DNA of 15,640 bases from an uncultured Bacteroides sp. (GTDB lineage Bacteria > Bacteroidota > Bacteroidia > Bacteroidales > Bacteroidaceae). How positions within the stretch are numbered: the stretch's first letter is position 1; each line of letters starts with the position of its first letter. Where the stretch lies: assembly GCA_900557355.1 (NCBI GenBank), contig USSR01000082.1:1-15640 (forward strand), in the 5' to 3' direction. Made by a program: the position numbers and the translations under genes. A model generated the notes under the pieces. It worked only from the letters and a program-made list of their open reading frames with translations, had not been told where the DNA came from and ran no database searches. Shown here piece after piece: positions 249 to 14,461 of the stretch.

Positions 249-1475
249 ATGGCATCGATAAGATTATTACTAAATAAACAGAGAATGCTTAATAATGGTA
301 CATTTCCATTAGTGTTTCAAATAATTCATCAAAGACGGAAATTACTTTATTATACCAAGTATCGTATATTTCAGCAGCAGTTTGACGAAAATACTTGTGA
401 AGTGGCATATTGCAAGTCTTCATTTTATTCTATGAAAGAAATAAAGGAGATGAATCGTGAATTAAAGCGGGAGTATAAGCAGCTTTCAGATCGTGTACGT
501 ATGTTAGAAAGGAAAAAAGAATTATACACTGTAGCTGACATTGTAGGGCCTAAAAGACAAAATCGTTTCCATTATTCTTTTCTTCAATATATGGATATGC
601 AGATCATTCGTAAGTTAAATATGGGGAAAGATGGAACTGCTGCAGCTTACCATAGCACGCGCGTTTCTTTGGGAAAATATATGCATATAGTTTCTGCTCG
701 AAAGACTGATATAAAGATGGAAGATATAGATTATAATTATGTGATTGGTTATGAAGGCTTCCTATATTCACAGGGGCTGGCGGAGAATACAGTGAACTAT
801 TATTTACGTAATTTTCGGACGATATATAATTCTGCAGTTCGGGAAGGATACAAACCCCAAAACGATCATCCTTTTATCTATGTCCATGCAAAGCCTTGTA
901 AAACTATCAAGCGTGCAATAAACAGAGAAGAGATGAAGAAATTATTCTCTTTATCTTTACCGGATTATTCAGAAATGGCGCTTTCTCGTGATTTGTATTT
1001 ATTTAGTTTTTACGCTCAAGGTATGGCTTTTGTTGATATTGCATTTCTGAAAAGGAAGAATATACATAGTAGTATACTTAGTTATTATCGTCATAAATCA
1101 AAACAGTTGATTCATGTTGTTGTTACCCCTCAAATGCTTTCTTTAATAGATAAATACGCAAATGCCAGTGAATATGTATTTCCAATAATTGACAGTGCTT
1201 TGTCAACGCCGGTATATGAGCAATATCGTTTGGCATTGAGACGCATAAATCGGCATTTGAAAAAGATGGCTTCTGCATTGAATATAGATGTGCCTTTGAC
1301 AACTTATACTGCTCGCCATACTTGGGCGACTTTGGCACGGGAAAGCGGGGCTCCTATATCTATAATAAGCGCAGGGTTGGGACATACTTCAGAAGAAATG
1401 ACGAGGGTATATCTTAAAGAGTTTGATCAGGATGTATTAGCACAAGTAAATCGTATAGTAACTAATCTGTTATAA
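249..1475 (+). CDS. Tyrosine site-specific recombinase (Bacteroides invertase/integrase type)
   Basis: A 408-aa DNA recombinase with three parts: an N-terminal arm-binding region (about residues 1-100), a SAM-like core-binding domain (about 105-215), and a C-terminal catalytic domain (about 220-408). The catalytic signature is visible as ARHTWAT (Arg356, His357), GLGHTSEEMTRVYL (His379, nucleophile Tyr388) and a beta-hairpin Lys (Lys283 or Lys285). At the place of the first catalytic Arg the sequence reads FYAQGM, with Gln257 where related Bacteroides enzymes usually have RGM, and the HxxR position reads YTAR (Tyr353). I cannot tell whether these are subfamily traits or losses. The gene sits about 70 bases upstream of an inverted-repeat-bounded segment and ahead of a capsule operon, the usual place for a local invertase of capsule phase variation. 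The ATG at 249 follows an AAAGGG-type ribosome site. No phage genes accompany it, so an invertase is more likely than a prophage integrase. Confidence 0.9.
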   Translation: MASIRLLLNKQRMLNNGTFPLVFQIIHQRRKLLYYTKYRIFQQQFDENTCEVAYCKSSFYSMKEIKEMNRELKREYKQLSDRVRMLERKKELYTVADIVGPKRQNRFHYSFLQYMDMQIIRKLNMGKDGTAAAYHSTRVSLGKYMHIVSARKTDIKMEDIDYNYVIGYEGFLYSQGLAENTVNYYLRNFRTIYNSAVREGYKPQNDHPFIYVHAKPCKTIKRAINREEMKKLFSLSLPDYSEMALSRDLYLFSFYAQGMAFVDIAFLKRKNIHSSILSYYRHKSKQLIHVVVTPQMLSLIDKYANASEYVFPIIDSALSTPVYEQYRLALRRINRHLKKMASALNIDVPLTTYTARHTWATLARESGAPISIISAGLGHTSEEMTRVYLKEFDQDVLAQVNRIVTNLL

Positions 1476-1498
1476 TATAAAAAACAGATTTGTTCTTT
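1464..1498 (+). terminator. Possible weak terminator at the end of the recombinase gene
   Basis: AATCTGTT (1464-1471) and AACAGATT (1483-1490) form a perfect 8-bp inverted repeat around an 11-base loop. The stem overlaps the stop codon at 1473-1475 and is followed by a broken T-rich stretch (TGTTCTTT). Low GC and the poor T-tract make it a weak candidate. Confidence 0.3.
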
Positions 1499-1502
1499 AA
1501 AT

Positions 1503-1541
1503 TTTGCGAAGTTCGGATTAATAATCTATATTTGTAATTGT
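1503..1541 (+). promoter_or_regulatory. Strong Bacteroides-type promoter pointing into the invertible segment
   Basis: TTTG at 1503-1506 (-33), a 20-base spacer, and TATATTTG at 1527-1534 (-7) match the TTTG-N19-21-TAnnTTTG consensus of Bacteroides housekeeping promoters without a mismatch. The start site would lie near 1541, a few bases before the left inverted-repeat site. The promoter is outside the segment between the repeats. As the window is written it reads antisense across araC. If the segment flips, it would read araC in sense, with the araC ATG falling near 1777. Confidence 0.65.
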
Positions 1542-1544
1542 TAT

Positions 1545-1566
1545 CTATTCCGTAATAGAGAGCAAA
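1545..1566. repeat. Left inverted-repeat recombination site (IRL)
   Basis: These 22 bases, beginning CTATTCCGTAATAGAGAG, are the exact reverse complement of 2779-2800. The core is a dyad ATCTATT / AATAGAG around the asymmetric centre CCGT (1550-1553). The left half-arm beyond that core is degenerate (TTGTTAT in place of TTGCTCT). Two arms around a short central spacer is the architecture of a tyrosine-recombinase crossover site. The recombinase gene ends 70 bases away. Confidence 0.8.
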
Positions 1567-1694
1567 TAAAATTTCATCTAAGGTTTAATCATAATTGATG
1601 TTGCAAAGTAAGCCTATTTTTAGCAAGTAATCACTATCTTAAAATTCAATAATACACACTTTTTGTACGGTTATGGAATATTAGTTCAAAATAT

Positions 1695-2570
1695 CTAATA
1701 GTTAGTCTGATATTGCTCTATTAATTGCTTCGGAGTGCAATGAAATTGTTGCTTGAAATAGCGATATAATTGTGCTTGTGATTCAAAATTGCATACTTCC
1801 ATTAATTGTTTGACTCGTACACCTGGCTCGGATACTTTTCCTAATATTCGTTCTTTTAATTGTTTCATCATCCACTTCTTGGCAGTTATTCCAAATTCCT
1901 TTTTAAATTTGATGTAGAAACTGGTTCTTCCCATATGCGATAATGTTATTAACTCATCCAAATTGTTTACTCTAGTATAGTTTTGCATGACAAAATCCTT
2001 GAATTCCAATTCTTTTCCAATAATAGGATGGAAAAGGTGTGCGATTTCCTGTTTCTCATAAAATCCTCTTAGTAGGAAAAAAAACTCACGTTGCATAATA
2101 TCATGTAAATGCGTACAATTCATGTTGTTTTTTAGGCAACAAACAACTGTTTCTAGAAAAGGTATCAGTGGATAACGAATAGGAATGGAATCAAATTCAT
2201 ATTCTATGTTTTTACACATAGGAGATAATGCCTGAAACAATAACTTGTCACAACTACTCAAAGGTACATCGAATGCCATAGTTAACATTTGAGATTTTGA
2301 TTCTGCAGAGATTTTGACCGCTGATGATTTAGGTAATAATATCATTTCATTATAATGAAAAATGTGATCACAAAATTGGTTACACTTTATTGAAAAATCA
2401 CCTTTTAAGAAAAATATGAGATAATTCTTATTGACGTACTCTTCTTCTATAATTGTTTTTTCTTTAAATTCAAGATATTTGAATCCTATTATAATCTCTG
2501 TCATGTAGTTTTTGCATGATAAATGTTCTCCAATGTTAAATAGTTCGTTTAATAATTGTTTTGTTTCCAT
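1695..2570 (-). CDS. AraC-family transcriptional regulator inside the invertible segment
   Basis: A 291-aa DNA-binding regulator. The N-terminal half (about 1-180) resembles the cupin-like sensory region of AraC proteins, with a run reading YLIFFLKGDFSIKC followed by FHYNEMILLP. The C-terminal part (about 190-291) holds the two helix-turn-helix units: the first around LDELITLSHMGRTSFYIKFK, the second around VKQLMEVCNFESQAQLYRYF. The ending FKQQFHCTPKQLIEQY is the conserved AraC C-terminus. Length and domain order are normal and the frame is intact. It is the only gene on the minus strand. No good TAnnTTTG promoter is visible upstream of it in the present orientation, which suggests that expression may depend on inversion and on the promoter at 1503-1541. 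Its target is unknown; the capsule operon, or its own segment with the ATTGAT repeats, are the natural candidates. Confidence 0.92.
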   Translation of the reverse strand: METKQLLNELFNIGEHLSCKNYMTEIIIGFKYLEFKEKTIIEEEYVNKNYLIFFLKGDFSIKCNQFCDHIFHYNEMILLPKSSAVKISAESKSQMLTMAFDVPLSSCDKLLFQALSPMCKNIEYEFDSIPIRYPLIPFLETVVCCLKNNMNCTHLHDIMQREFFFLLRGFYEKQEIAHLFHPIIGKELEFKDFVMQNYTRVNNLDELITLSHMGRTSFYIKFKKEFGITAKKWMMKQLKERILGKVSEPGVRVKQLMEVCNFESQAQLYRYFKQQFHCTPKQLIEQYQTNY

Positions 2571-2591
2571 GTTTATTGTTTTTAATGATTT

Positions 2592-2613
2592 AAATAGGAG
2601 TTAAACTCTATTT
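2592..2613 (-). promoter_or_regulatory. Hairpin/dyad in the araC leader
   Basis: AAATA-G-GAGTT and AACTC-TATTT form a 10-bp inverted repeat with one bulged base and a one-base centre, 22 to 43 bases upstream of the araC start codon. It could be a protein-binding dyad or an RNA hairpin affecting translation. No function can be read from the sequence. Confidence 0.3.
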
Positions 2614-2656
2614 GTTTCATAATATGTTCATTATTGTATATCCTAATTTGCTTTTA

Positions 2657-2758
2657 ATCAATATATTATACTTGATCAATTATTGATATATACTATATTA
2701 TATTTAAGATGAAACATAGTTGATTAATATTATTGATTATAAAATACAGTAAATCAAT
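2657..2758. repeat. Cluster of ATTGAT/ATCAAT hexamers upstream of araC
   Basis: ATCAAT occurs at 2657, 2675 and 2753, ATTGAT at 2682 and 2732, and the variant GTTGAT at 2719. The copies at 2675 and 2682 form a perfect palindrome with a one-base centre. Six related hexamers in about 100 bases is more than I would expect even in AT-rich DNA. They lie inside the invertible segment and could be operator sites for the AraC protein. Confidence 0.4.
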
Positions 2759-2774
2759 GATATATTGTATAAAG

Positions 2775-2816
2775 ATATATTTTGCTCTCTATTACGGAAT
2801 AGAGAGCAAAATATAT
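2775..2816. repeat. Right inverted-repeat recombination site (IRR), a perfect 19-bp dyad
   Basis: The arms ATATATTTTGCTCTCTATT (2775-2793) and its exact reverse complement (2798-2816) flank the centre ACGG (2794-2797). Bases 2779-2800 are the inverted copy of the left site 1545-1566. The dyad is far longer than a recombinase core alone needs and is more symmetrical than its partner. It is not followed by a T-run, so it is not a terminator in the plus direction. Confidence 0.8.
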
Positions 2817-3006
2817 TAATCTTATTATTGTTATATAAATGTTTATATATCAATGTATTATTGGGTAATGATAGTAGTCTGATATTACCTATAGAGAGTT
2901 TTTATAATTATATTATACAATAATAATAGAGAATAGTAATCATCGTTGATAGTCAAAAAATATAAATAGAATAATAAACTATTATTTATATTAGGAGTAT
3001 TTTATT

Positions 3007-3042
3007 ATGGTAGTATTTATGAGATTGTTCATAACTCTTTAA
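3007..3042 (+). CDS. Possible leader peptide (11 aa) in the upxY leader
   Basis: An ATG at 3007 opens an 11-codon frame encoding MVVFMRLFITL and ends at TAA 3040-3042. An AGGAG ribosome site lies at 2993-2997, nine bases upstream, a strong signal in DNA otherwise almost all A and T. Such a short translated leader could couple ribosome movement to transcription. A chance ORF is quite possible at this length. Confidence 0.25.
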   Translation: MVVFMRLFITL

Positions 3043-3057
3043 ATATTACTTTTTGCT

Positions 3058-3097
3058 TTTGATATTTAGGATATAGTCGTCATATATTTAGAGTAAG
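3058..3097 (+). promoter_or_regulatory. Candidate fixed promoter directly upstream of upxY
   Basis: TTTG at 3058-3061, a 21-base spacer, and TATATTTA at 3083-3090, one mismatch from TAnnTTTG. The start would be near 3097, just before the GTCACA dyad and about 50 bases before the upxY ATG. If real, the capsule operon has a promoter that inversion does not touch. It is weaker than the promoter at 1503. Confidence 0.3.
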
Positions 3098-3147
3098 CTG
3101 TCACATGTGTGACTGGCGAAGACAGAGTGTATCTAGGACTTACATTT

Positions 3148-3666
3148 ATGAATAGCAAAATAGAACAAAAAAATTGGCTTGTAGCTTACGTACAGAGCAA
3201 TAGGGAGAAGAAAACTTACGACCGTCTTACCGCATTGGGTATTGAGGCATTTCTTCCGTTACAAGAAGAAGTACATCAGTGGAGTGACCGTCGCAAGAAA
3301 GTACAGAAGGTGATTATTCCGATGTGTATATTCGTTCGGGTCACTTATCCCGAACGGTTAGATGTTCTTCATTTACCTTCGGTCAATCGTTTTATGGTTT
3401 TGCGTGGAGAGAGCACCCCGGCCACTATTCCGGAATCACAGATGGAACGCTTTAAGTTTATGCTCGATTATTCAGAGCAGACAGTTGAGATGTGCTATGA
3501 ACATTTGCAGCCTGGAGAACGAGTGAGAGTAATTAAAGGCTCGTTGACGGGATTGGAGGGAGAACTGATAACAATTGGTGACAAGAGTAAAGTGGCAGTC
3601 CGGATTGATATACTAGGGGTAGCCCTTGTGGAGATGCCGATTGGATTTGTAGAGAAACTGGCTTGA
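3148..3666 (+). CDS. upxY: UpxY-family transcription antiterminator (NusG-like), first gene of the CPS operon
   Basis: A 172-aa NusG/RfaH-family protein. The N-terminal NGN domain (about 5-105) begins NWLVAYVQSNREKKTYDRL and continues through FLPLQEEVHQWSDRRKKV and the IFVRV strand. A C-terminal KOW domain (about 115-170) reads GERVRVIKGSLTGLEGEL. In Bacteroides each capsule locus starts with its own UpxY, which lets RNA polymerase read through the leader of that locus. A longer frame opens at a GTG (3109), but the ATG at 3148 gives the usual family N-terminus; the GTG would add 13 residues without family character. The next gene starts five bases after the stop, so this is an operon. No upxZ, the trans-inhibitor gene that often follows upxY, is present. 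GC content is visibly higher than in the flanking DNA. Confidence 0.93.
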   Translation: MNSKIEQKNWLVAYVQSNREKKTYDRLTALGIEAFLPLQEEVHQWSDRRKKVQKVIIPMCIFVRVTYPERLDVLHLPSVNRFMVLRGESTPATIPESQMERFKFMLDYSEQTVEMCYEHLQPGERVRVIKGSLTGLEGELITIGDKSKVAVRIDILGVALVEMPIGFVEKLA

Positions 3667-3670
3667 TTGA

Positions 3671-5488
3671 ATGAAACAGATAATAGATAAGGAAAGCTGC
3701 TGCGGGTGTAACGCCTGTGGAGATATATGTGCGCATGCAGCGATTTCTTTTAAAACGGATATTGAAGGATTCTGGTATCCCGAAATTGATCAAGCTAAAT
3801 GTGTTGATTGCGGCTTGTGTATGAAAGTCTGCCCTGTTGTAAATGTCGAAAGACTGAAGCATAATGATTTGCAATCTCCAGAATGTTATGCTGCTATTCA
3901 TAAAAATTTGGAGGTAAGATTTGATTCCACTTCCGGTGGGATTTTTTCTGCATTGGCTGAATATATGTATCGTCAAAAAGGATATGTTGGGGGAGCTATT
4001 TACAATGATGATTTCTCTGTACGTCAATTCATATCTCCTGATAAAAGTGATTTATCGGCTTTACGTAGTTCAAAATATTTGCAAAGTAATGCGGAAGGAT
4101 TTTATATCTTAGTTCGTGATTTATTGAATCGTGGAGAAAAGGTGCTTGTGTGTGGTACACCCTGTCAAATGGCTGCATTGCGTGCTTTTTTACATAAACC
4201 CTACGAGAATTTAATTATTATCGATTTTATTTGTCGGGGAATTAATTCGCCAAAAGCTATGCAGAAGTTCTATGAGGATTTAGAAAAAAAAGCTAACTCT
4301 AAGTTGGTATACATAAAAGCTAAGAATAAAGAACTGGGATGGCGTAATCTTACAACGAAATATATTTTTGATAATAAAAAGGTTATATATCTAAAAAAGG
4401 ATGAAAACACATTTACAAAAGGCTATTTGCAGACAAATGTGTTTTGCCGTCCATCTTGTTATGATTGTCAGTTTAAAGGCTTTCCTAGGATTGCTGATAT
4501 TACAATTGCCGATTTTTGGGGGGCTGAGGAGAACGTTAGCAAGGATTTGGACAATGATCTTGGCACTTCACTCGTGCTGGTTAATTCAGAGAAAGGACGT
4601 GTTTGTTTTGATAAAATAGCTAATCGGATATTATCAGAATCAATTACACTTAATGATGCATTGAAAGGCAATCCGGCTTTAATTAAACCTCTTGATGCTC
4701 CTAATGTTAATCGTGAGTGTTTTTATCGTGATCTTGATAAAAATGATTATCAGTATATTGTAGATAAATATATAAGTTCACCTTCTTCGAAACAGAGTTT
4801 GCGTCGTAAACTGGTAAATCTGTTGCATTTTGGTAGATTACTAAAAGACGCCTGCGGTTGGAGTGTCCCTACTTTTATAAAAAATCTCAAATATAATTTC
4901 TTTTCTCGTCAGACAAAAACTGATATTCTTGCCGGGAAATATATGGTAATTTATAAACATAGTATTATTGAATTACACAAGAATGCCAGAATAGATATCA
5001 ATGGAATTTTCCGTGTAGGAAACAAAAAATTTAAAGATTCACGACTTGAAACACGTTTGTTGATTGATGAAGGTGGACGCATTAACGTGAGAGGTTCGTT
5101 CGACATAGGTTACGGCTCTGATGTCGAGGTATTTAAAGGTGCGTTACTCGAGTGCGGTGGACATAGTGGAATCAATATGGGCGCAACTATTATTTGTGCT
5201 GAACACATTTTGTTGGAACGTGAGGTAATGATAGGTCGTAATGTGACGATTCGTGATAACAATGGAGGGCATTATCTCTCATATCGTGGCTACAAAAACA
5301 CACGTCCTGTTGTGGTTGGACAACATGTTTGGCTGTGTGAAGGGTGTACCATTATGCTTGGTGTCCATGTGCACGATGGAGCGATTATCGGTGCCCATAC
5401 ATTAGTGCAGAATAATGTTCCGGCTTTTACCGTTGTTTCAGGTAATCCGGCGAAAATAGTAGATGAAGATGTATATTGGAAATATTAA
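3671..5488 (+). CDS. Ferredoxin/FrhB-like protein fused to a hexapeptide (LbH) acyltransferase
   Basis: A 605-aa protein with two usually separate parts. Residues 1-60 form a dicluster 4Fe-4S ferredoxin, with C10-x2-C13-x2-C16-x3-C20 and C44-x2-C47-x2-C50-x3-C54-P. About 70-370 resembles the coenzyme F420 hydrogenase/dehydrogenase beta-subunit family (FrhB/FdhB), including STSGGIFSAL, VCGTPCQMAAL, CRPSCYDCQF and IADFWG. About 400-605 is a left-handed beta-helix acyltransferase of the NodL/WbbJ type, ending GNPAKIVDEDVYWKY. FrhB-like proteins are common in capsule and exopolysaccharide loci, often beside pyruvyltransferases, but their reaction there is not settled. The transferase half would put an acetyl or other acyl group on a sugar; in this operon it might use the chain made by the genes downstream. 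The frame is continuous across the junction, so this is a genuine fusion and not two genes. The start is five bases after upxY. Confidence 0.88.
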   Translation: MKQIIDKESCCGCNACGDICAHAAISFKTDIEGFWYPEIDQAKCVDCGLCMKVCPVVNVERLKHNDLQSPECYAAIHKNLEVRFDSTSGGIFSALAEYMYRQKGYVGGAIYNDDFSVRQFISPDKSDLSALRSSKYLQSNAEGFYILVRDLLNRGEKVLVCGTPCQMAALRAFLHKPYENLIIIDFICRGINSPKAMQKFYEDLEKKANSKLVYIKAKNKELGWRNLTTKYIFDNKKVIYLKKDENTFTKGYLQTNVFCRPSCYDCQFKGFPRIADITIADFWGAEENVSKDLDNDLGTSLVLVNSEKGRVCFDKIANRILSESITLNDALKGNPALIKPLDAPNVNRECFYRDLDKNDYQYIVDKYISSPSSKQSLRRKLVNLLHFGRLLKDACGWSVPTFIKNLKYNFFSRQTKTDILAGKYMVIYKHSIIELHKNARIDINGIFRVGNKKFKDSRLETRLLIDEGGRINVRGSFDIGYGSDVEVFKGALLECGGHSGINMGATIICAEHILLEREVMIGRNVTIRDNNGGHYLSYRGYKNTRPVVVGQHVWLCEGCTIMLGVHVHDGAIIGAHTLVQNNVPAFTVVSGNPAKIVDEDVYWKY

Positions 5489-5516
5489 TAATAAAAACCT
5501 ATAAATAAAGAGAATT

Positions 5517-5750
5517 ATGGACATTCAGAATTTTATTGCGAATTTTGCCGAACAATTTGATGACATTGATGTTGCTGAACTTCATTCAGATACCATTTTT
5601 CATGAACTTGACGGATGGACTTCATTGGCAGCGCTTTCTATTATCGCTATGATTGACGATGAATATAATGTTTCTGTTTCGGGAAAAGATATTCGTGAAT
5701 CCGAGACGATCGAAGATTTATATAATGTAGTTAAAAGCAAAAAGGGCTGA
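5517..5750 (+). CDS. Acyl carrier protein 1
   Basis: A 77-aa acidic four-helix carrier protein. The phosphopantetheine attachment site is Ser36 in LDGWTSLAALSII, where most ACPs read DSL; the Asp is replaced by Thr. The rest, with YNVSVSGKDIRESETIEDLYNVV, matches helices 3-4 of the family. It would carry malonyl or the growing acyl chain for the KAS III enzyme encoded next. Its stop codon overlaps the start of that gene by one base (TGATG), which suggests coupled translation. It is clearly different from the second ACP at 8624 and has the look of a dedicated, not a housekeeping, carrier. Confidence 0.9.
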   Translation: MDIQNFIANFAEQFDDIDVAELHSDTIFHELDGWTSLAALSIIAMIDDEYNVSVSGKDIRESETIEDLYNVVKSKKG

Positions 5751-6808
5751 TGAGTTTTCTTCATATTCCACATGTTGCAGTTCGAGGTATTGCGGCGTGT
5801 GTACCAAAGATAATAGAAGAAAATACAACCCTTGCTGTATTTGACACCCCGGAGCAATGCCAAAGTTTTATTTCTACTACAGGAGTGCGGCGTAGACGTC
5901 TTGTTAATGCGAAAACTTGCACATCTGATTTATGTTTTGAGGCTGCATGTGAATTATTAACGAAACTTGATTGGGGAACAAATATTGATTGTTTGATATT
6001 TGTTACACAGACCCCGGACTATTATTTGCCGGCTACATCTTGTATTCTTCAGGATAGGTTAGGACTTCCGACCGGGTGTTTTACGCTTGATATTTCGTTG
6101 GGGTGTTCCGGGTGGGTGTATGGTATGAGTGTTATCGCGGCCTTATTAAGAGGAGGTATGATGAAACGAGGCTTATTGCTTTGTGGTGATACTTGTACGA
6201 AAACGGCTTCTTCTGCAGATAAGAGTGTATGGCCTCTGTTTGGGGATGCCGGAACGGCAACAGCGATTGAATATAATGCTGAAGATGAAACAGGAATGTC
6301 TTTTCATTTTGCTACAAATGGAGCGGGTGCTGAAACCATTATTATTCCTGATGGAGGATATCGCCACCCTGTGAATTTGCAGTCATTTGAGATAAAAGAA
6401 TATGAAAAAGGAATATCCCGTAGTAATTTGCATACTTATCTTAATGGTATGGATGTTTTCTCTTTTGGCATATCCAAAGCTCCAGAATCGGTCAGACAAT
6501 TGCTTGATTATAAGCAAATAAGTAGTGATGAGATAGATTATTATCTTTTTCATCAGGCTAATCTGTTCATGAATGAGAAAATACGTAAGAAATTAAAAAT
6601 AGAAATCGGGAAAGTGCCTTATTGTCTACAAGATTTTGGAAATACTTCATCGGCGTCTATTCCTCTTACCATGGTGACACAATTACAGGGTAAGTTGCAC
6701 AACGAATATTTGAAACACATAGGTTGTGGCTTTGGAGTAGGACTTTCATGGGGAAGTATTTATTTTGAGACTGACCATATTGCATGTCCGGATTTAATAG
6801 AAATTTAA
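5750..6808 (+). CDS. 3-oxoacyl-ACP synthase III (KAS III/FabH-like) 1
   Basis: A 352-aa condensing enzyme of the thiolase fold. The full Cys-His-Asn triad is present: Cys119 in DISLGCSGWVYG, His268 in YLFHQANLFM, and Asn298 in DFGNTSSASIPL. The C-terminal GCGFGVGLSWGSI loop is also typical. FabH-type enzymes condense an acyl-CoA starter with malonyl-ACP. Length is slightly above the usual 320-330 aa. It starts on the last base of the ACP stop codon and is followed 15 bases later by a ketoreductase, so ACP, synthase and reductase are encoded as one module. The second KAS III at 7571 shares the same layout but is clearly diverged, which argues for different substrates and against a recent duplication. 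A separate housekeeping FabH is expected elsewhere in the genome. Confidence 0.93.
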   Translation: MSFLHIPHVAVRGIAACVPKIIEENTTLAVFDTPEQCQSFISTTGVRRRRLVNAKTCTSDLCFEAACELLTKLDWGTNIDCLIFVTQTPDYYLPATSCILQDRLGLPTGCFTLDISLGCSGWVYGMSVIAALLRGGMMKRGLLLCGDTCTKTASSADKSVWPLFGDAGTATAIEYNAEDETGMSFHFATNGAGAETIIIPDGGYRHPVNLQSFEIKEYEKGISRSNLHTYLNGMDVFSFGISKAPESVRQLLDYKQISSDEIDYYLFHQANLFMNEKIRKKLKIEIGKVPYCLQDFGNTSSASIPLTMVTQLQGKLHNEYLKHIGCGFGVGLSWGSIYFETDHIACPDLIEI

Positions 6809-6823
6809 AAATATAGAAGATTT

Positions 6824-7570
6824 ATGTATAATCCTTTTTCATTGGAGGGAAAGACTGTCCTGGTGACAGGGGCGTCGAGTGGTATTGGACGTGCTGTAGC
6901 CATTGAATGTTCGCGCATGGGAGCTCGTGTTTATATTACAGCTAGAAATGAAGCACGACTAAAAGAGACTCTTGAACTATTGGAAGGAGATGGGCATGAG
7001 ATGATTATTGCTGATTTATCTGATTTGTCGCAATTGGATTACATCGTAGAACATGTAGGACATTTGGACGGACTGGTAAATAATGCAGGCTATGCAGTCG
7101 TGATGCCTACTTCTTTTATTACAAAAGAAAAGTTGCAGGATATATTGACAATAAATACGATTGCTCCTATACTGTTGACTCAAAAATTGCTTAAGAAGAA
7201 GAAAGTTACGAGAGGTGCTTCTGTTGTTTTTACAGCATCTATATCAGGTCCTGTGGTTTCTGGTATTGGACATGCAATGTATTCTACTTCCAAGGCTGCT
7301 ATAGGAGGATTTGTCAAGAATGCAGCACTTGATTTGGCTAGTAAAAACATACGGGTGAATGCAGTTTCCCCAGGGATGATAGAAACGAATATGATGAATA
7401 ATAATTCTATAACACTTGAACAGTATGAATTGGATAAAAAAGAATATCCATTAGGTCGCTATGGTCGTCCGGAAGAAGTTGCTTATGCAATGATTTATTT
7501 ATTGTCTGATGCTTCGTCTTTTACAACGGGGACAAATCTTATTCTAGACGGCGGGGTAACACTGAGATAA
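6824..7570 (+). CDS. Short-chain dehydrogenase/reductase (FabG-like ketoreductase) 1
   Basis: A 248-aa classical SDR. The NAD(P)-binding motif TGASSGIG is at residues 15-22, NNAG at 86-89, and the active site has Asn111, a Ser in FTASIS (Ser139 or Ser141) and Y153-x3-K157. The ending TTGTNLILDGGVTLR is typical of FabG. Arg residues after the second strand (ITARNEARL) suggest NADPH. It would reduce a 3-oxoacyl-ACP to the 3-hydroxyacyl form. The stop codon directly abuts the next ATG, so the two are encoded in tandem. With no dehydratase in the cluster, the hydroxyl would be kept. Confidence 0.92.
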   Translation: MYNPFSLEGKTVLVTGASSGIGRAVAIECSRMGARVYITARNEARLKETLELLEGDGHEMIIADLSDLSQLDYIVEHVGHLDGLVNNAGYAVVMPTSFITKEKLQDILTINTIAPILLTQKLLKKKKVTRGASVVFTASISGPVVSGIGHAMYSTSKAAIGGFVKNAALDLASKNIRVNAVSPGMIETNMMNNNSITLEQYELDKKEYPLGRYGRPEEVAYAMIYLLSDASSFTTGTNLILDGGVTLR

Positions 7571-8617
7571 ATGGAAACAATTATTCAGAATACGAGACTT
7601 AAAGCCGTTTGCTCCTGGTTACCGGAGGGCAGTCTTGAATTGAGTTCGTTAGCAGAACAATATGGTGAAGCGGAGGTCGTTAATATCATCAGGGCAACAG
7701 GCATAGAGCGCGTTCGTATTGCAGACTCTGACATGACATCATCTGATATGTGTTATAATGCCGCTAAGGCATTGATTGAGAAAGAAAATATAGATTCTGC
7801 AGAAATTGACGGGCTTGTGTTTGTTTCTCAGACATGCGACTATATTTTGCCGTCGACTTCTGTTTCTTTACAGCATCGTCTGAAATTACCGAAAACGACA
7901 ATTTGTATCGATATCCATTATGGTTGTTCGGGATATATTTACGGCCTTTTTCAGGCAGCTATGTGGATTGCTTGTGGGGCATGTAGTAATGTTTTGGTGT
8001 TGGCGGGAGATACTACTTCTCGCATGATTAATCAGAATGACAAGTCCCTTCGTATGGTCTTTGGAGATTGTGGTACCGCATCATTGTTATGCAAAGGAAC
8101 AAGGCCGATGGGCTTCCATATTAATTCTGACGGTAGTGGGGCAGATCGGCTCATTATTCCTGCCGGTGGTTTCCGGCTTCCTGCTTCAGAAGCAACATCT
8201 ATGTTGACGTGGGATGCAGAGCACAATGGCAGAACACTGAATGATCTTTATATGGACGGTATATCCATATTTAATTTTGCTATAGCGAATGTTCCTGATA
8301 ATATAGAGCGTTTGTTGAAAATGATGGAATGGGATAAAGAAAGCGTGGGACTTTATGCCTTGCATCAAGCCAACAAGTTTATGGTTCATTATATATGCAA
8401 AAAACTTAAAATTTCAGAGGAACTGGCTCCCATGAATGTCCTTAATTATGGGAACACCGGTCCGGCTACCATTCCCTTATTACTTTGTGATATATGTACA
8501 GAGAAGAAAACCAATCTGGAACATGTTGTTATGAGTGGTTTTGGGGTGGGGCTCTCATGGGGCAGTATAGCTGCTTCGTTTGTTGATACACATTTTTATG
8601 AACCGATTAATAAATAA
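7571..8617 (+). CDS. 3-oxoacyl-ACP synthase III (KAS III/FabH-like) 2
   Basis: A 348-aa KAS III with the intact triad Cys119 (DIHYGCSGYIYG), His265 (YALHQANKFM) and Asn295 (NYGNTGPATIPL), and the same GFGVGLSWGSI C-terminal loop as its partner at 5750. The two proteins align along their whole length (for example SQTCDYILPSTS against TQTPDYYLPATS), yet many positions differ. It may perform a second condensation on the hydroxyacyl chain made by the first module. Other possibilities are a different starter specificity or action as an acyltransferase, as some FabH-like proteins do. ACP 2 begins six bases after its stop, echoing the ACP plus KAS III pairing of module 1. Confidence 0.93.
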   Translation: METIIQNTRLKAVCSWLPEGSLELSSLAEQYGEAEVVNIIRATGIERVRIADSDMTSSDMCYNAAKALIEKENIDSAEIDGLVFVSQTCDYILPSTSVSLQHRLKLPKTTICIDIHYGCSGYIYGLFQAAMWIACGACSNVLVLAGDTTSRMINQNDKSLRMVFGDCGTASLLCKGTRPMGFHINSDGSGADRLIIPAGGFRLPASEATSMLTWDAEHNGRTLNDLYMDGISIFNFAIANVPDNIERLLKMMEWDKESVGLYALHQANKFMVHYICKKLKISEELAPMNVLNYGNTGPATIPLLLCDICTEKKTNLEHVVMSGFGVGLSWGSIAASFVDTHFYEPINK

Positions 8618-8623
8618 ATACGA

Positions 8624-8845
8624 ATGGAAAAGAAAGTATTAGCGATTATTAATGAAATACGTACTTCAAAGGATTTGCCGGCATTATCTGTTCTTAAATC
8701 TACGGATAATTTGCGTGATGATCTTGAATTGACATCATTCGATTTAGCGGAGTTGACAGTGAAAATTGAAGATGAATTTGATGTTGATATCTTTGAAGAT
8801 GGATTAGTCAGCACAGTTGGCGAAATTTTTGTAAAACTCAAATAA
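8624..8845 (+). CDS. Acyl carrier protein 2
   Basis: A 73-aa acidic carrier protein. The likely phosphopantetheine serine is Ser38 in DDLELTSFDLAEL, again with Thr in place of the usual Asp of DSL but with a Phe after the Ser. The KIEDEFDVDIFEDGL stretch is the conserved helix 2-3 region. It has little in common with ACP 1 beyond the fold, so each KAS III or the ligase may have its own partner. Its stop overlaps the ligase start by one base (TAATG), pointing to the ligase as a direct partner. Confidence 0.88.
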   Translation: MEKKVLAIINEIRTSKDLPALSVLKSTDNLRDDLELTSFDLAELTVKIEDEFDVDIFEDGLVSTVGEIFVKLK

Positions 8846-10062
8846 TGGAAACTTTTCTTATAGACAAACAGAACACGTATACTTATGCCGATCTTCTGTA
8901 TACTATAAATAAGGATAAAGTATATCGTCCTCTATTTAAAGGAACTTGCTTATTTCAGTATTTTAGCAATTTAGTTAAAGCTCTTGTATGCAATCAGCCC
9001 TTGATTCTGCTTGATTCAGATTTGAATTTTAATGAAATGGGGGAATTATCGGAAAAGCAGGTGAATGAACAAGTTCCACTTATTTTTCATGAGTTTAAGT
9101 CAATAGATGAGGTGATTGCGGCTGTTCAAGTCTCTACTTCTGAGATAACTCTTTTTACATCAGGAACTACGGGGCAGCCTAAAAAGGTAATTCATACAGT
9201 CTTTTCTCTTACACGTTCTGTACGTATCAGCGAAAACAATAAGGGACAGATATGGGGATTTGCATACAATCCCACTCACATGGCCGGCCTTCAAGTGTTT
9301 TTTCAGGCATTTGAGAATAAAAACACGCTTGTTAATATTTTTGGCAATAGCCGTACGGCGGTTTATCAAGCTATTGATAATAACCAGATTACCCATTTAT
9401 CGGCTACGCCAACATTTTATAGGCTATTGCTGCCTTACGAACATTCTTGTCCATCTGTAGTGAGAGTAACTTTAGGAGGAGAGAAATCTGACCAACATTT
9501 ATATAAGTCTATTAGTGAAATATTTCCTTCTGCTAAAATAAATAATATATATGCTTCAACAGAAGCAGGCTCTCTTTTTGCCGCTAGAGGAGATTGCTTC
9601 CAAATACCGGATAGTCTGCAAGACAAGTTCAGAGTAGAAATGGATGAATTACTAGTTCATAAATCTTTGTTAGGGCAATCTGATAGTTTTCAGTTTACTG
9701 ATGACTATTATCATACAGGTGATTTAATTGAATGGGTGGATAAAGAGAAAGGTTTGTTTCGCTTTAAGAGCCGTAAAAATGAATTGATAAATGTCGGCGG
9801 TTATAAAGTGAATCCTGAAGAAACAGAAAATGCTTTATTGGCAATTGTGGGAATTAGTCAGGCTCTGGTTTATGGTAAAGCCAATTCAGTTTTAGGAAAT
9901 ATCCTTTGTGCTGATATAAAGATAGAAGCGGGAAGTTCCTTAACAGAATTGGAAATAAGAAATCAGTTGAAAAGTAATTTGCAAGATTTTAAAATCCCTC
10001 GTCGGATTAAGTTTGTAGAATCATTTGCTTTGACAAGAACCGGAAAAATGAAACGTTTATGA
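8845..10062 (+). CDS. AMP-forming acyl ligase (ANL superfamily), short form
   Basis: A 405-aa adenylate-forming enzyme. Core motifs are in order: the phosphate-binding loop TSGTTGQPKK (105-114), YASTEAG (236-242), HTGDLIEW (290-297), the hinge region RKNELINVGGYKVNPEE (310-326), and a C-terminal catalytic Lys in TRTGKMKRL. It is about 100 residues shorter than typical acyl-CoA synthetases, with a reduced N-terminal part, close in size to MenE-type and stand-alone acyl-ACP ligases. It would activate a carboxylic acid with ATP and load it on CoA or a carrier protein, here most plausibly ACP 2, which it overlaps by one base. It may supply a starter, recycle a released acyl chain, or activate the finished acyl group for transfer. 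The substrate cannot be read from the sequence. Confidence 0.88.
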   Translation: METFLIDKQNTYTYADLLYTINKDKVYRPLFKGTCLFQYFSNLVKALVCNQPLILLDSDLNFNEMGELSEKQVNEQVPLIFHEFKSIDEVIAAVQVSTSEITLFTSGTTGQPKKVIHTVFSLTRSVRISENNKGQIWGFAYNPTHMAGLQVFFQAFENKNTLVNIFGNSRTAVYQAIDNNQITHLSATPTFYRLLLPYEHSCPSVVRVTLGGEKSDQHLYKSISEIFPSAKINNIYASTEAGSLFAARGDCFQIPDSLQDKFRVEMDELLVHKSLLGQSDSFQFTDDYYHTGDLIEWVDKEKGLFRFKSRKNELINVGGYKVNPEETENALLAIVGISQALVYGKANSVLGNILCADIKIEAGSSLTELEIRNQLKSNLQDFKIPRRIKFVESFALTRTGKMKRL

Positions 10063-10781
10063 ATTATTTAGTGACAGGATGCTCACGGGGTGTAGGTCTG
10101 GAAATATGTAAAGTCCTTTTGGAACAAAATCATTGTGTATACGGAATAGCAAGAAGTTATACTGATGAATTTAAGGCATTGGAAAAGAGGTATGCAGACA
10201 AGTTGTTTTTCAAAAGTGTCGATTTAGCCGACTTGGAAAATATAAGGAAAATTATTTTTAAAGACTTTGTACCTAATCAAGTTTGCTTGCATGGATATGT
10301 GAATAATGCGGCGCTGGCTTATGATGATATTGTGACAAACATGAATCTGGAACGCCTGCAGAATATGTATGCTGTAAATGTGTTTGCACCTATGATGATG
10401 ACCAAGTATGTCATTAGAAATATGCTCTATCATCACACCCGTGGAAGTATTCTGCATATCTCATCCATTAGTGTTCATACCGGTTACAAAGGGCTTGCCA
10501 TGTATGCTTCCAGTAAAGGTGCTTTAGAAGCATTCTCTAAAGATACTGCTCGTGAATGGGGTGAATTGGGTATTCGTTCTAATGTTGTAGTACCCGGATT
10601 CATGGAAACCGCCATGAGTGCTACACTTTCTACCGAGCAAAAAGAACGCATTTATAAGCGTACATCTATGAAGGCTGCTACTTCTATTCGTTCAGTAGCA
10701 GAAACTGTAGCTTTTTTATTGTCAGATAAGGCAGAGAGCATCACAGGAGTTGAACTGAGAGTAGATAATGGAACGATCTGA
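10059..10781 (+). CDS. Short-chain dehydrogenase/reductase 2
   Basis: A 240-aa classical SDR with TGCSRGVG (residues 6-13) as the nucleotide-binding motif, NNAA at 82-85 where NNAG is usual, Asn107, a Ser in ISSISVH, and Y149-x3-K153. The C-terminal VELRVDNGTI is the shortened FabG ending. It starts in a four-base ATGA overlap with the ligase gene, a strong sign of coupled translation. It would provide the second ketoreduction of the cassette. It is clearly different from SDR 1, so a distinct substrate or opposite hydroxyl stereochemistry is possible. Confidence 0.9.
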   Translation: MNYLVTGCSRGVGLEICKVLLEQNHCVYGIARSYTDEFKALEKRYADKLFFKSVDLADLENIRKIIFKDFVPNQVCLHGYVNNAALAYDDIVTNMNLERLQNMYAVNVFAPMMMTKYVIRNMLYHHTRGSILHISSISVHTGYKGLAMYASSKGALEAFSKDTAREWGELGIRSNVVVPGFMETAMSATLSTEQKERIYKRTSMKAATSIRSVAETVAFLLSDKAESITGVELRVDNGTI

Positions 10782-11727
10782 TAGGATGATAATTATGAAA
10801 AGAGAGAACGATTGTGGTATTCCGAATGAGTTAACACTTCATAATGGCGTCACAATACCTTGTATAGGAAATGGACCGGGCATCCCCTACATTCCTTATA
10901 ATAATGAAAACTATATTGTGAAGCAGCTGCACAGAGTCTATAATAAACTATATGCCCGTCCCTGCCTGTTGCATCATTATGTAGAGGCCGTATCTCATTC
11001 TTTTCAAGTGGGATACCGGTTATTGGATTATTCTTCTTCTTATGGAGATGGAACTTTGATAGGCAAAGCTATAAAACGGAGCCGCATTGATAGAAAAGAG
11101 TTATTTTTAACGACGAGAATAAGTAATCCCGCACAGAGAAGTGGAGAAATCAAGAAATGTTTTTTTCAACAGTTGAAGGGTATGGGCACAGACTATATAG
11201 ATTTGCTGATGTTCCATTGGCCTGTCACCGATTATTATCTCGATACATGGAAAGAAATGGTCAATCTTTACAATGCCGGCTATTGCCGCGCTATTGGGGT
11301 AGCCAACTGTCATCCCCATCATATCGAGCATTTGATAAAGGCAACCGGATTTGTTCCGATGGTCAATCAGGTTGAGATTCATCCGCTGTTTACCCAGAAA
11401 GAACTGATAAACTATTGCCGGTCTAAGAATATAGTTGTTGAAGGCTACACTGCCATAGCACGTTTTGATGACAGGCTGATGCGTCTCCCTTTATTGCATC
11501 AGATAGCCAGAAAGTACAATAAGACTGTGGTTCAGCTGATTCTTCGATGGCACATACAAACGGGAGTGATACCCATTGTCAGATCCATGAATAAAAAACG
11601 GCAACTGGAAAATATCTCAATTTTTGATTTTGAATTATCAATGGAAGAAATGAATGCGATCAATGGCATTAATATCAATTCTCGTTTACGTTATGATCCC
11701 GATAACTGTGATTTCTCCATATTATGA
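10768..11727 (+). CDS. Aldo/keto reductase-family protein with a Lys-to-Arg change in the active site
   Basis: A 319-aa TIM-barrel AKR. Of the usual Asp-Tyr-Lys-His tetrad, Asp87 and Tyr92 (LLDYSSSYGDG) and His150 (LLMFHWP) are present, but the Lys position reads LFLTTRIS, giving Arg117. An insertion of about 25 residues (YNNENYIVKQLHRVYNKLYARP) separates the first strand from the DYSSSYGDG loop. NADPH contacts near the C-terminus are recognisable (IPIVRSMNKKRQLEN). It may reduce a carbonyl of the acyl chain or of a sugar; the Arg might lower or alter activity. The start is uncertain: ATG 10768 overlaps the previous gene by 14 bases, while ATG 10786 and 10795 lie after the previous stop. An AGG nine bases upstream favours 10795. 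Confidence 0.85.
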   Translation: MERSDRMIIMKRENDCGIPNELTLHNGVTIPCIGNGPGIPYIPYNNENYIVKQLHRVYNKLYARPCLLHHYVEAVSHSFQVGYRLLDYSSSYGDGTLIGKAIKRSRIDRKELFLTTRISNPAQRSGEIKKCFFQQLKGMGTDYIDLLMFHWPVTDYYLDTWKEMVNLYNAGYCRAIGVANCHPHHIEHLIKATGFVPMVNQVEIHPLFTQKELINYCRSKNIVVEGYTAIARFDDRLMRLPLLHQIARKYNKTVVQLILRWHIQTGVIPIVRSMNKKRQLENISIFDFELSMEEMNAINGININSRLRYDPDNCDFSIL

Positions 11728-11736
11728 TTGGCAGGC

Positions 11737-13263
11737 ATGCAGGCTAACAACAAAATAATAGCTAAAAATACCCTAATGTTATACTTCCGGATGCTGTTTC
11801 TGATGATAGTCTCATTGTTCACATCCAGAGTGGTACTCAAAGTCTTGGGAGTAGATGATTATGGTATTTACCAGGTTGTAGGAGGTGTTGTCGGTTTCTT
11901 GGGATTTTTAAATGTGGCTCTGACTGCAGGGTCATCCCGCTTCCTGACCTATCATTTGGGAGAAGGCAATTACTCAAAACTTCAGCGGACGTTTAGCACG
12001 ACTCTGACAATCCATCTGGCTTTAGCAATTTTGCTTGTACTTATAGCCGAAACATATGGGCTGTGGTTTGTCTATAATAAACTACTGATTGCTCCCGACA
12101 AGATGGAAGCAGCCGTATGGGTCTATCATTTGTCTATTGTCTGTACATTTATGGGGATTACCCAAGTACCGTACGGTGCGTCTATTGTTGCCCACGAGCG
12201 CATGAATATTTATGCTTACACAGGGATTGCTGATGTTGTTTTAAAACTATTGATTGTTTATCTGTTGTACATATCTCCTATGGATAAGCTCAAATTTTAT
12301 AGCTTGTTGTTAGCAATACAAAGCTTGGGCATCATGCTTTTTGAACGCTATTATTGTATTTCCCGGTTTTCGGAAACAAGATATAAATTTGTTTTTGATA
12401 AGGAGTTGTTGAAACAGATAGGTCGCTTCTCCGGATGGAGCTTGTTTGCTAACCTGTCGATAGCGCTGAATACACAGGGGATGACTATCCTGACCAATAT
12501 GTTTTTTTCTCCTTCTGTAGTAACGGCACGGGCTGTTGCCGGTAGCGTAAGCAATGCGGCAAACCAGTTCGTACAGAATTTCAGGACAGCCGTCAATCCT
12601 CAAATTATAAAAACGTATGCGGCAGGAGACAGAGAGGCTTCAAAAAATTTATTGCTCAGTTCCACTAGATATTCTTTTTATCTGATGTTCCTGCTTGGAT
12701 TACCCATCCTGTTATTAGCAGATCAGATTCTCTATTATTGGTTGGGACAAGTGCCGGATTACGCTCCTGTTTTTCTACAGCTGACAATTGTACAGGCACT
12801 ATTCTCCATTTTTGATTCATCGTTTTACGTGGCTTTGTATGCTAAAGGGCGATTGAAAGAAAATGCATTGATTAGTCCTTTGGTAGGATTTATACAATTT
12901 CCGGTAGTATATATCTTATTCCGGCAAGGATATTCACCAGTTGCCTTATCATGGGCTGCCGTTGTCTCTTATGCAATTTTAGGGCTGGTGATAAAACCTG
13001 TATTGATATGCCGGATTGTAGGGTATGATTATAAGGAAATCATGGTCAAGACAGTTCTGCCTTCCCTGAAGGTTGTGATTGTAGCGAGCATTTTACCAAT
13101 AGTGCTCCGTAACATTCTCATAGAGGAGAATTTCTTGAACTTCATGATAATCGGAATGTCTACAGTCTGCATCGTCATAGTAGTTATTTATTACGTGGGG
13201 CTGGACAGTAGTGTTCGGAAAAAGTTGAAGAACTATGTCCATGCTAAGTTGAAATCTTTATAA
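11737..13263 (+). CDS. wzx: Wzx-type polysaccharide flippase (MATE/MOP superfamily)
   Basis: A 508-aa integral membrane protein with about 12-14 hydrophobic segments spread over its length, beginning NTLMLYFRMLFLMIVSLFTSRVVLKVLG and followed by the DDYGIYQVVGG signature common to Bacteroidetes O-antigen/capsule flippases. It would move lipid-linked repeat units across the inner membrane for Wzy-dependent polymerisation. The frame can be extended to a TTG at 11728, but the ATG at 11737 gives the normal N-terminus. It follows the AKR gene by nine bases. Base composition here is visibly richer in GC than in the acyl cassette, which suggests the operon was put together from pieces of different origin. 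Confidence 0.92.
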   Translation: MQANNKIIAKNTLMLYFRMLFLMIVSLFTSRVVLKVLGVDDYGIYQVVGGVVGFLGFLNVALTAGSSRFLTYHLGEGNYSKLQRTFSTTLTIHLALAILLVLIAETYGLWFVYNKLLIAPDKMEAAVWVYHLSIVCTFMGITQVPYGASIVAHERMNIYAYTGIADVVLKLLIVYLLYISPMDKLKFYSLLLAIQSLGIMLFERYYCISRFSETRYKFVFDKELLKQIGRFSGWSLFANLSIALNTQGMTILTNMFFSPSVVTARAVAGSVSNAANQFVQNFRTAVNPQIIKTYAAGDREASKNLLLSSTRYSFYLMFLLGLPILLLADQILYYWLGQVPDYAPVFLQLTIVQALFSIFDSSFYVALYAKGRLKENALISPLVGFIQFPVVYILFRQGYSPVALSWAAVVSYAILGLVIKPVLICRIVGYDYKEIMVKTVLPSLKVVIVASILPIVLRNILIEENFLNFMIIGMSTVCIVIVVIYYVGLDSSVRKKLKNYVHAKLKSL

Positions 13264-13270
13264 AATTGAT

Positions 13271-14410
13271 ATGAAAATTGCGATACTGACATTACCCTTG
13301 CATACCAATTATGGAGGGATACTCCAGGCGTATGCATTGCAAACTGTTCTGCAAAATATGGGACATGAAGTTAAAATCATAAATTATTCGATGGAACTTC
13401 CGAAAGGAGTAATGGTGAAGAATGCATGTTTGCGTTTATTTAATAAAATGAGAGGAAACGATGAATTTGTCGCTGTGAACTTGCGTAGATATTTAAAGCG
13501 AAAATTTATGCGGGATTCAAGAATTACTCATTTTATAAGTAGGAACATTGAATTGTCAAAAGAAAAGTATAACAGAAAGGAAACTTTGGAATCCCTGTCC
13601 GGCAGTGATTTCGATGCTTTTATTGTAGGTTCGGATCAGGTTTGGCGGACGGCATATGTTTCGGATATATCCATTTATTTTTTATCTTTCATAAAAGATA
13701 CAAGAAAAAAAAGAATTGCTTATTCTGCATCGTTTGGCGTTGATTATCAAGAATATATACCAGAACAAATAGAAGATTGTCGGCAATATTTTTCCTTGTT
13801 CGATGCTGTTTCTGTAAGAGAAGAAAGCGGATTAAAATTGATAGAAGAATATCATTGGAAATGTAAAACGGCGTGTGTGCACACTTTGGACCCTACTATG
13901 CTTTTAGAAGGAAGCGATTATATACGTTCTTTTCAATTGAATATATATGCCAAGAAAGCAATCTTATGTGCTTATATACTGGATATTTGTGACGATACAA
14001 ATTATATCCAACGGCAAGTAGCCATGTCAAAAGGATTGGACGTAGTCAAAATAGAATCTATAGATACTTTTAAAATATGGAGGAAGAACCCCCTCATGTC
14101 ACCTGTTCAGTGGATGGAGCATATTGCGGCTTCCCGATTTGTAGTGACAGATTCGTTTCATGGTTGTGTCTTCTCCATATTATTTCATAAACCGTTTGTC
14201 GTGTTTAATAATTCTACTCGGGGAAGTGTACGGATGACTTCCTTATTGCGTCTCCTGCAATTGGAGGAACGTTTAGTCTCCTCCAGTAGTGAATTTGAGG
14301 AACGGAGAAACTTATTATTACAGGATATTGATTATTGTAAAGTTGATATTCTGCTAAAGGAGAAGAGAGTGTCGAGTCTCTCATTTCTTGATGCAGCTCT
14401 AAATAAATAG
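13271..14410 (+). CDS. Polysaccharide pyruvyl transferase family protein
   Basis: A 379-aa protein of the CsaB/WcaK-like polysaccharide pyruvyl transferase family. The N-terminus MKIAILTLPLHTNYGGILQAYALQ, the middle FIVGSDQVWR, IAYSASFG, and the C-terminal FVVTDSFHGCVFSILFHKPFVVFNN are family signatures. Family members transfer pyruvate from phosphoenolpyruvate to sugars as ketals, though many capsule members are untested. In Bacteroides loci such proteins are usually neighbours of FrhB-like ferredoxin proteins; here the FrhB-like gene is about 8 kb upstream at the head of the operon. It begins seven bases after wzx. Confidence 0.9.
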   Translation: MKIAILTLPLHTNYGGILQAYALQTVLQNMGHEVKIINYSMELPKGVMVKNACLRLFNKMRGNDEFVAVNLRRYLKRKFMRDSRITHFISRNIELSKEKYNRKETLESLSGSDFDAFIVGSDQVWRTAYVSDISIYFLSFIKDTRKKRIAYSASFGVDYQEYIPEQIEDCRQYFSLFDAVSVREESGLKLIEEYHWKCKTACVHTLDPTMLLEGSDYIRSFQLNIYAKKAILCAYILDICDDTNYIQRQVAMSKGLDVVKIESIDTFKIWRKNPLMSPVQWMEHIAASRFVVTDSFHGCVFSILFHKPFVVFNNSTRGSVRMTSLLRLLQLEERLVSSSSEFEERRNLLLQDIDYCKVDILLKEKRVSSLSFLDAALNK

Positions 14411-14461
14411 AAATTCCTGTTTACATACATTGTATTTAAATCGCATATATAGAAGTATATT

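Follow-up and report, generated by a model that had tools for sequence, protein, structure and literature searches.

Switching of capsules and fimbriae in Bacteroides is usually described as the flipping of a bare promoter. In the capsule switch, a short invertible promoter lies before upxY, with an Mpi-type recombinase in B. fragilis and local tyrosine recombinases elsewhere, and the tsr15 (aapI) switch of B. fragilis is reportedly, from the abstract of Weinacht 2004, a flip of the promoter region. Invertible segments that enclose genes are also described: the Salmonella Hin and Providencia stuartii fimbrial segments span about 0.85-1 kb and have a coding gene inside (excerpts of PMC5903667), and larger Bacteroides inversions carry TonB/SusD-type clusters or genes that are moved into expression loci (excerpts of PMC8375218 and PMC12632263). 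An excerpt of the latter source also describes B. fragilis tsr15 (aapI) as phase-variable, with a product that resembles fimbriae.

Here, we analyze a 15,640-nucleotide stretch of Bacteroides DNA (the window) in which a regulator gene lies between inverted sites upstream of a capsule-type operon. The features of the sequence make it probable that this segment is a site-specific inversion switch carrying an activator together with the activator's promoter, and that the window presents it in its OFF state. The kind of switch is known; what sets this case apart is that the predicted flipped unit holds an activator gene plus a promoter and stands before a capsule operon.

A regulator gene between inverted sites upstream of upxY

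From left to right, the window holds a tyrosine recombinase gene, a first site, a minus-strand araC-family gene, a second site, upxY and a capsule-type operon. The left recombination site (1544-1566, plus strand, centre CCGT) and the right one (2781-2803, minus strand, centre ACGG) form an exact 23-bp inverted match (23/23; 27/29 over 1538-1566 and 2781-2809) and enclose a segment of 1214 bp. No exact inverted match between the non-coding stretches on either side of araC is longer than these 23 bp; in 200 dinucleotide shuffles of those stretches the longest match averaged 10.0 bp and never exceeded 14 bp. An earlier note on this DNA had described exact 22-bp inverted sites at 1545-1566 and 2779-2800; such sites are present, with the right-hand coordinates about 2 bases off, and their oppositely oriented asymmetric centres are as it described them. 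Its complete minus-strand araC between the sites, with HTH domains above cut-off, and its upxY directly behind the segment, with an NF033644 match above cut-off, also stand, and the recombinase gene does lie left of the site, its stop codon being 68 bp rather than 70 from it.

The right site sits within a perfect palindrome (2775-2816, 19+4+19) that is longer than the one at the left site. The operon-side palindrome is likewise longer in two of the related modules described below (L001 and L087), with no general trend across modules. A role for this palindrome as an OFF-state insulator was considered and rejected: relative to an in-silico inversion, the stem is longer now in 7 of 19 modules, equal in 8 and shorter in 4.

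The recombinase, the predicted local invertase, is encoded at 249-1475 on the plus strand (408 aa), with Phage_int_SAM_5 (PF13102), Phage_integrase (PF00589) and Arm-DNA-bind_5 (PF17293) domains above cut-off. Its catalytic boxes RHTWAT and LGHT and the Y are present; box I reads QGMAFVDI, with an Ala aligned where the XerC-like 4a8e has the first catalytic Arg. All 20 module recombinases with a readable box, of 21 tried, have a residue other than Arg at this position, and the catalytic boxes of one recombinase (L107) were not matched by the box pattern. IntDOT is active without the first catalytic Arg.

The araC-family regulator (1695-2570, minus strand, 291 aa) has a paired HTH C-terminal domain (HTH_18, PF12833, and HTH_AraC, PF00165, both above cut-off), with a profile match to MarA and others. 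Its structure model (mean pLDDT 82.8, pTM 0.67) combines a strand-rich N-terminal domain with a helical C-terminal part, and since the best Foldseek matches are ToxT, Rns and CsvR (TM 0.4-0.5), which the model resembles, a ligand-sensing role is possible. Candidate AraC sites lie at both ends of the gene. Upstream of araC, the repeats TGTTTCA (2613-2619) and ATGTTCA (2624-2630) stand 11 bp apart as a putative operator (2613-2630, plus strand), with a distal inverted copy, TGAAACA, at 2710-2716; these TGAAACA repeats are conserved in our alignment A3. An RNA hairpin reading of these leader repeats was discarded and we treat them as DNA sites, because RNAalifold found no pairs in 12 aligned leaders. 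At the other end, the GTACAAAA box lies upstream of the promoter-like element P_out discussed below; it reads GTACAAAAAGTG in the window (1657-1668, minus strand; consensus GTACAAAATG in alignment A2 of 12 modules) and is a candidate activator site, missing in L003 and L089, which have shorter spacers, and diverged in L086 and L006. Three relatives have a second, distant AraC-like gene beyond the recombinase (L004, 9663-10523; L005, 9669-10529; L090, 10485-11351).

Behind the segment lies upxY (3109-3666, plus strand; 169.4 bits to NF033644, cut-off 100), which encodes a UpxY-family antiterminator and is the first gene of the capsule operon. Its leader, counted from the right site, measures 305 bp to a GTG at 3109 or 344 bp to the likelier start, an ATG at 3148. 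In Bacteroides capsule loci upxZ often follows upxY (excerpt of PMC12632263); no upxZ-like gene was found directly after upxY here, where the next gene (3671-5488) encodes a 605-aa FrhB/4Fe-4S and hexapeptide transferase protein. The rest of the operon (3671-15640, plus strand) comprises, with this gene, those for two PP-binding proteins, two KAS III proteins, two short-chain dehydrogenases, an AMP-ligase, an aldo/keto reductase, a polysaccharide pyruvyl transferase, a flippase-like protein whose MatE match is below cut-off, and a Polysacc_synt_2 protein at the end of the window, where the last gene runs off. Genes for two phosphopantetheine-binding (ACP-like) proteins, two KAS III-like proteins, a short-chain dehydrogenase and an AMP-ligase lie within 5517-10062, and their presence in the operon suggests a capsule polysaccharide with an acyl or polyketide-like decoration.

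Related cassettes and their operons

An alignment of 20 AraC proteins, used to scan genome contigs, yielded 25 loci; the araC of the window itself falls in a cluster (P0001) that represents 820 contigs. At a threshold of E <= 1e-30, 27 of 158 genomes of the genus to which the genome of relative L001 belongs had AraC matches; wider AraC searches (5 of 393 genomes at the order level, 4 of 399 at the family level) added few relatives, and neither AraC nor the recombinase had a relative among viral contigs. We compiled 20 modules (the window, L001-L006, L086-L090, L094 and L101-L107), keeping L105 despite an extra gene between recombinase and araC, and leaving out L091, whose araC is cut by a contig end, and L109, L110, L114-L116, L118 and L119, which have no module. 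Two further loci, L117 and L120, enter only the tally of orientations, and L117 also that of operons.

A recombinase gene stands beside an araC gene between inverted sites in 19 of the 20 modules, the window included. We took the longest inverted match as the arms; 16 of these 19 modules have arms identical over 18-29 bp, and the arms of the other 3 agree at 90-94% of positions (35/39 in L102, 26/28 in L103, 31/33 in L107). Strand exchange needs matching centres in both copies of a site; the two copies match in all 12 modules with TCTATT-type or near sites, which together use seven centres (CCGT, CCAT, CTGT, CTAT, ACGG, TTCATG and ACTTA). Because the centres are matched yet vary among diverged relatives, the inverted sites in the window are very likely functional recombination sites. 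Genome-wide, the strict TCTATT pattern occurs at 8 places in 4 of 6 genomes (reversed control, 0), of which 6 are module sites of L001-L005, 1 lies beside the araC cut by a contig end (L091) and 1 lies elsewhere; a relaxed pattern was dropped, as it came near its reversed control in many genomes among the matches listed.

The site sequence differs by recombinase group, being CACTCTCTCCCGTAGAGAGTG in L094 and TTCATCTGT...ACAGATGA in L101 and L105. More generally, L094, L101-L105 and L107 are araC switches with quite different sites and more distant recombinases. The window recombinase shares 43-55% identity with its counterparts in 12 TCTATT-type araC-switch relatives (L117 included), 33-36% with 7 other araC-switch recombinases, and 28-34% with recombinases of upxY loci (15 with a value), whose box sequence is TLRHSWATTAKYRG as against TARHTWATLAR in the window.

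Fimbrial-type matches lie directly behind the segment and point away from it in 18 of the 19 relatives with a recombinase (L001-L006, L086-L090, L101-L105, L107 and L117), the exception being L094. The queries, by Pfam, were DUF3575, DUF3868 (a query labelled OmpA), FimA/Fimbrillin_C and Mfa2, and the record annotation of L117 (B. finegoldii) lists fimbrial-type genes. Among the modules seen, only that of the window has upxY behind it. The remaining module, L106, has a recombinase match that covers the C-terminal half only and contains 6 in-frame stops, and its araC lies the opposite way round, before a fimbrial operon. Its only site-like repeat measures 12 bp, a length that 14 of 200 shuffles reach; we therefore rejected this repeat as a site remnant, and since it is not beyond chance, L106 may not derive from a module of this kind at all. 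Between its araC and its fimbrial operon (within 6093-8001), L106 has a hairpin that looks like a terminator and carries a T run.

We also scanned the neighbourhoods of 16 AraC relatives that lack an intact recombinase, a selection from the loci retrieved (for L097-L100, about 1.5 kb to either side), leaving out L009, L015-L017, L019-L025 and the remaining weaker loci of the genus. A fimbrial gene lies co-directionally within 500 bp downstream of araC in 8 of the 16 (L007, L010, L011, L012, L018, L092, L099 and L106); seven of these eight are recombinase-free, and L106 has its degenerate recombinase. The Bacteroides -7 promoter element is TAnnTTTG, and a strict match to it lies between araC and the fimbrial gene in six of these eight loci; L106 has the relaxed form there and L099 neither. 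Strict elements also occur within 300 nt upstream of araC in 9 of 13 such relatives (2.76 expected), as against 3 of 20 (1.80 expected) between araC start and site, toward araC, inside the invertible segments. These elements and the co-directional fimbrial genes of the recombinase-free relatives point, in the clearest cases, to a fixed order of promoter, araC, promoter and operon. The misfits are L008, with FimB 1.85 kb away, L110, with DUF3575 on the other strand some 2.8 kb off, and L109, with an OmpA-like match upstream, while L013, L014, L097, L098 and L100 have no fimbrial match in the stretch scanned. In the cassettes as assembled, araC and its putative rear promoter are turned round between the fixed promoter and the operon.

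Promoter-like elements and the proposed switch

Two promoter-like elements in the window frame this comparison. The first, P_in (1503-1534, plus strand), is a full TTTG-N20-TATATTTG match, with TTTG at 1503-1506, a 20-nt spacer and TATATTTG at 1527-1534; it is fixed outside the segment, 9 nt from the left site, and points into it. The second, P_out, is a -7-like element, TTACTTTG followed by CA (1604-1611, minus strand), that has one mismatch to TAnnTTTG, has no TTTG at 17-30 nt upstream, and now points left out of the segment. We counted strict (TAnnTTTG) and relaxed (T[AT]nnTTTG[CT]) motifs in four regions, on both strands, of the 20 modules and of 100 dinucleotide shuffles of each; in L106, whose araC is reversed, the two outer flanks are swapped in meaning. 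Between the araC stop and the 3' site, on the araC strand, the relaxed motif, chosen after the sequences had been inspected, occurs in 20 of 20 modules (2.75 expected) and the strict one in 11 (2.70), counts that are not independent, the modules being related. This P_out-type element is aimed away from the operon in every module except the degenerate L106. Just outside the site on the araC-stop side, pointing inward as P_in does, 10 of 20 modules have the strict motif (2.08 expected) and 10 the relaxed one (2.82); the P_in motif is absent in 10. The recombinase frame and the site overlap in L101 and L103; after inversion a single transcript might therefore cover both recombinase and araC, and such read-through might replace P_in.

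Between the araC start and its site, toward araC, the relaxed motif occurs in 2 of 20 (1.25 expected); on the two strands of the outer flank on the araC-start side, the strict motif occurs in 1 (2.45 expected) and 1 (2.52) and the relaxed one in 4 (3.88) and 3 (2.73); and on the outer flank of the araC-stop side, pointing away, there is 1 against 0.64 expected. The inward strand of the araC-stop region has a weak excess (strict 6, 2.63 expected; relaxed 4, 3.74 expected). An E. coli-type promoter scan (23 found, 15.9 expected, sd 3.7) was set aside as uninformative for Bacteroides.

Because P_out lies just 3' of araC and P_in just outside the recombinase-side site, we propose that inversion has a double effect and that the window is OFF. 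In the present orientation, P_in would read into araC from its 3' end, against the direction of the gene, and P_out would face the recombinase, with both araC and the capsule operon predicted to be OFF. The adjoining tyrosine recombinase would invert the segment between the sites, and one inversion would give the order P_in, araC, P_out, upxY, predicted to be ON, with P_out probably the promoter that AraC serves. The eight fimbrial relatives without an intact recombinase support this model, since in them the elements stand in the order that the window would acquire by inversion. From the arrangement of these elements we infer that strands are exchanged, that the promoters are active, that AraC acts on P_out, and which orientation is ON and which OFF. 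The earlier note had proposed an invertible-type segment with a regulator gene before upxY; the linked recombinase and matched sites bear this out, and the promoter-like elements add to it a predicted double effect. If the model is correct, the ON state would need two conditions, orientation and AraC activity (perhaps with a ligand), so that OFF could stay tight.

Every one of the 21 loci in which a recombinase is present and araC can be read (19 modules, L117 and the partial faecal scaffold L120) has araC in the same orientation, and the opposite orientation occurs only in L106, with its degenerate recombinase. The earlier note had held that a single orientation with eroded sites among related genomes would speak against inversion; one half of that pattern is found, in that 21 of 21 loci share one orientation, and the sites are not eroded. 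Such uniformity argues for a strong bias or a stuck switch. It would also fit a switch of the opposite sign, with the orientation read here as the ON state. AraC would then bind the repeats close to the start of its gene and, from the gap of 210 bp that separates araC from the right site, divergently activate upxY as well as its own gene, and inversion would turn the operon OFF. The TGAAACA repeats 11 bp apart and their distal inverted copy are conserved in exactly this gap, and activator-dependent promoters can lack consensus elements. We nevertheless regard the opposite sign as unlikely: the gap has no excess of -7 motifs toward the operon (strict 2 of 20, 5.49 expected; relaxed 8 of 20, 8.14 expected), the P_out position is filled in 20 of 20 modules, and araC is co-directional with the operon in the eight relatives without an intact recombinase.

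A stuck switch, whose sequence is intact but which has ceased to flip or flips only very rarely, would account for the single orientation in 21 of 21 loci and would suit the Ala in the window recombinase at the XerC-like first catalytic Arg, but we think this quite improbable. A non-Arg residue is found there in all 20 recombinases read, and IntDOT does without that Arg; moreover, the recombinase frame is open and the sites are matched in diverged modules. A strong OFF bias also has precedent in B. fragilis, where, in excerpts of the respective papers, the Tsr19 capsule promoter is OFF in three genome sequences, although the authors anticipated this for one of them, given the culture it came from (PMC3090145), and the ON state accounted for 1.03% of IVp-I in an inoculum (PMC4747536). 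A role of the inverted repeats as palindromic operators or terminators, with an incidental recombinase gene nearby, is very improbable. Each site is palindromic and the right one is the only terminator-like match in 1400-3300, but in 19 modules the sites stand on either side of an araC that adjoins a recombinase gene, their sequences vary with the recombinase group, and their asymmetric centres match in inverted orientation.

Comparison with known switches

The inversion switch that we favour shares with the capsule promoter switch its inverted sites upstream of upxY, its neighbouring recombinase and a predicted phase variation of the capsule. The capsule switch, however, spans a few hundred bp and contains a promoter only, whereas the segment in the window spans 1214 bp and holds a complete gene for a 291-aa putative activator. 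We surveyed the best 30 of 114 UpxY matches (15 genomes), with about 1.5 kb examined on each side: 16 of the 30 loci have a tyrosine recombinase match near upxY, and none of the 30 has an AraC match. GTTACTTCTTAGGTAAC-type inverted repeats occur in all 8 recombinase-bearing upxY loci readable in forward orientation, a count that leaves out 1 masked and 7 reverse-oriented loci; one of the upxY loci (L121) has the order recombinase, 17-bp repeats 285 bp apart, UpxY. The fimbrial recombinase-araC cassettes resemble the window in their three-part layout, in their site type (the same in the closest) and in the P_out motif present in all tested; they differ in that a DUF3575/OmpA/FimA/Mfa2-type operon follows, where the window has upxY and capsule genes behind a leader of 305-344 nt. 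Since 18 of 19 relatives are fimbrial, 0 of 30 upxY loci have an araC, and the recombinase is nearer to the TCTATT-type araC-switch group, what the window shows resembles a switch of the fimbrial type that has come to lie before a capsule operon. We lean, by a little, toward the broader view that this is a portable 'double-disconnect' switch, in which one recombination would join a fixed promoter to an activator and the activator's promoter to a surface operon, giving an ON state reached in two steps and possibly self-reinforcing, and which evolved with fimbriae and was grafted onto a capsule. Such switch cassettes would then move between kinds of surface structure, and fimbria-type control would govern a capsule.

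In the titles and abstract openings among the literature matches listed, we found no invertible segment carrying an AraC gene, nor is there one in the excerpts of PMC11892184, PMC4747536, PMC3090145, PMC8375218, PMC11868660, PMC8748976, PMC5903667, PMC12632263 and PMC10994844; the enclosed genes named in those excerpts are restriction-specificity subunits, recombinases, a small C. difficile open frame and surface-gene clusters. According to an excerpt of PMC8748976, that survey removed invertible regions containing or overlapping coding sequences, and gene-carrying invertible segments can therefore escape notice. A survey size limit that would miss segments this long was also suspected; none appears in the excerpts of published surveys.

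Among the described systems, as far as excerpts of the sources go, the B. fragilis tsr15 (aapI) switch resembles the window in its local tyrosine recombinase, which the review PMC12632263 leaves unnamed. The larger Bacteroides inversions are, like the segment in the window, flanked by a recombinase and have genes inside, but there the surface genes themselves flip rather than a regulator. The Hin and P. stuartii segments enclose their recombinase, whereas the segment in the window encloses a regulator and leaves the recombinase outside.
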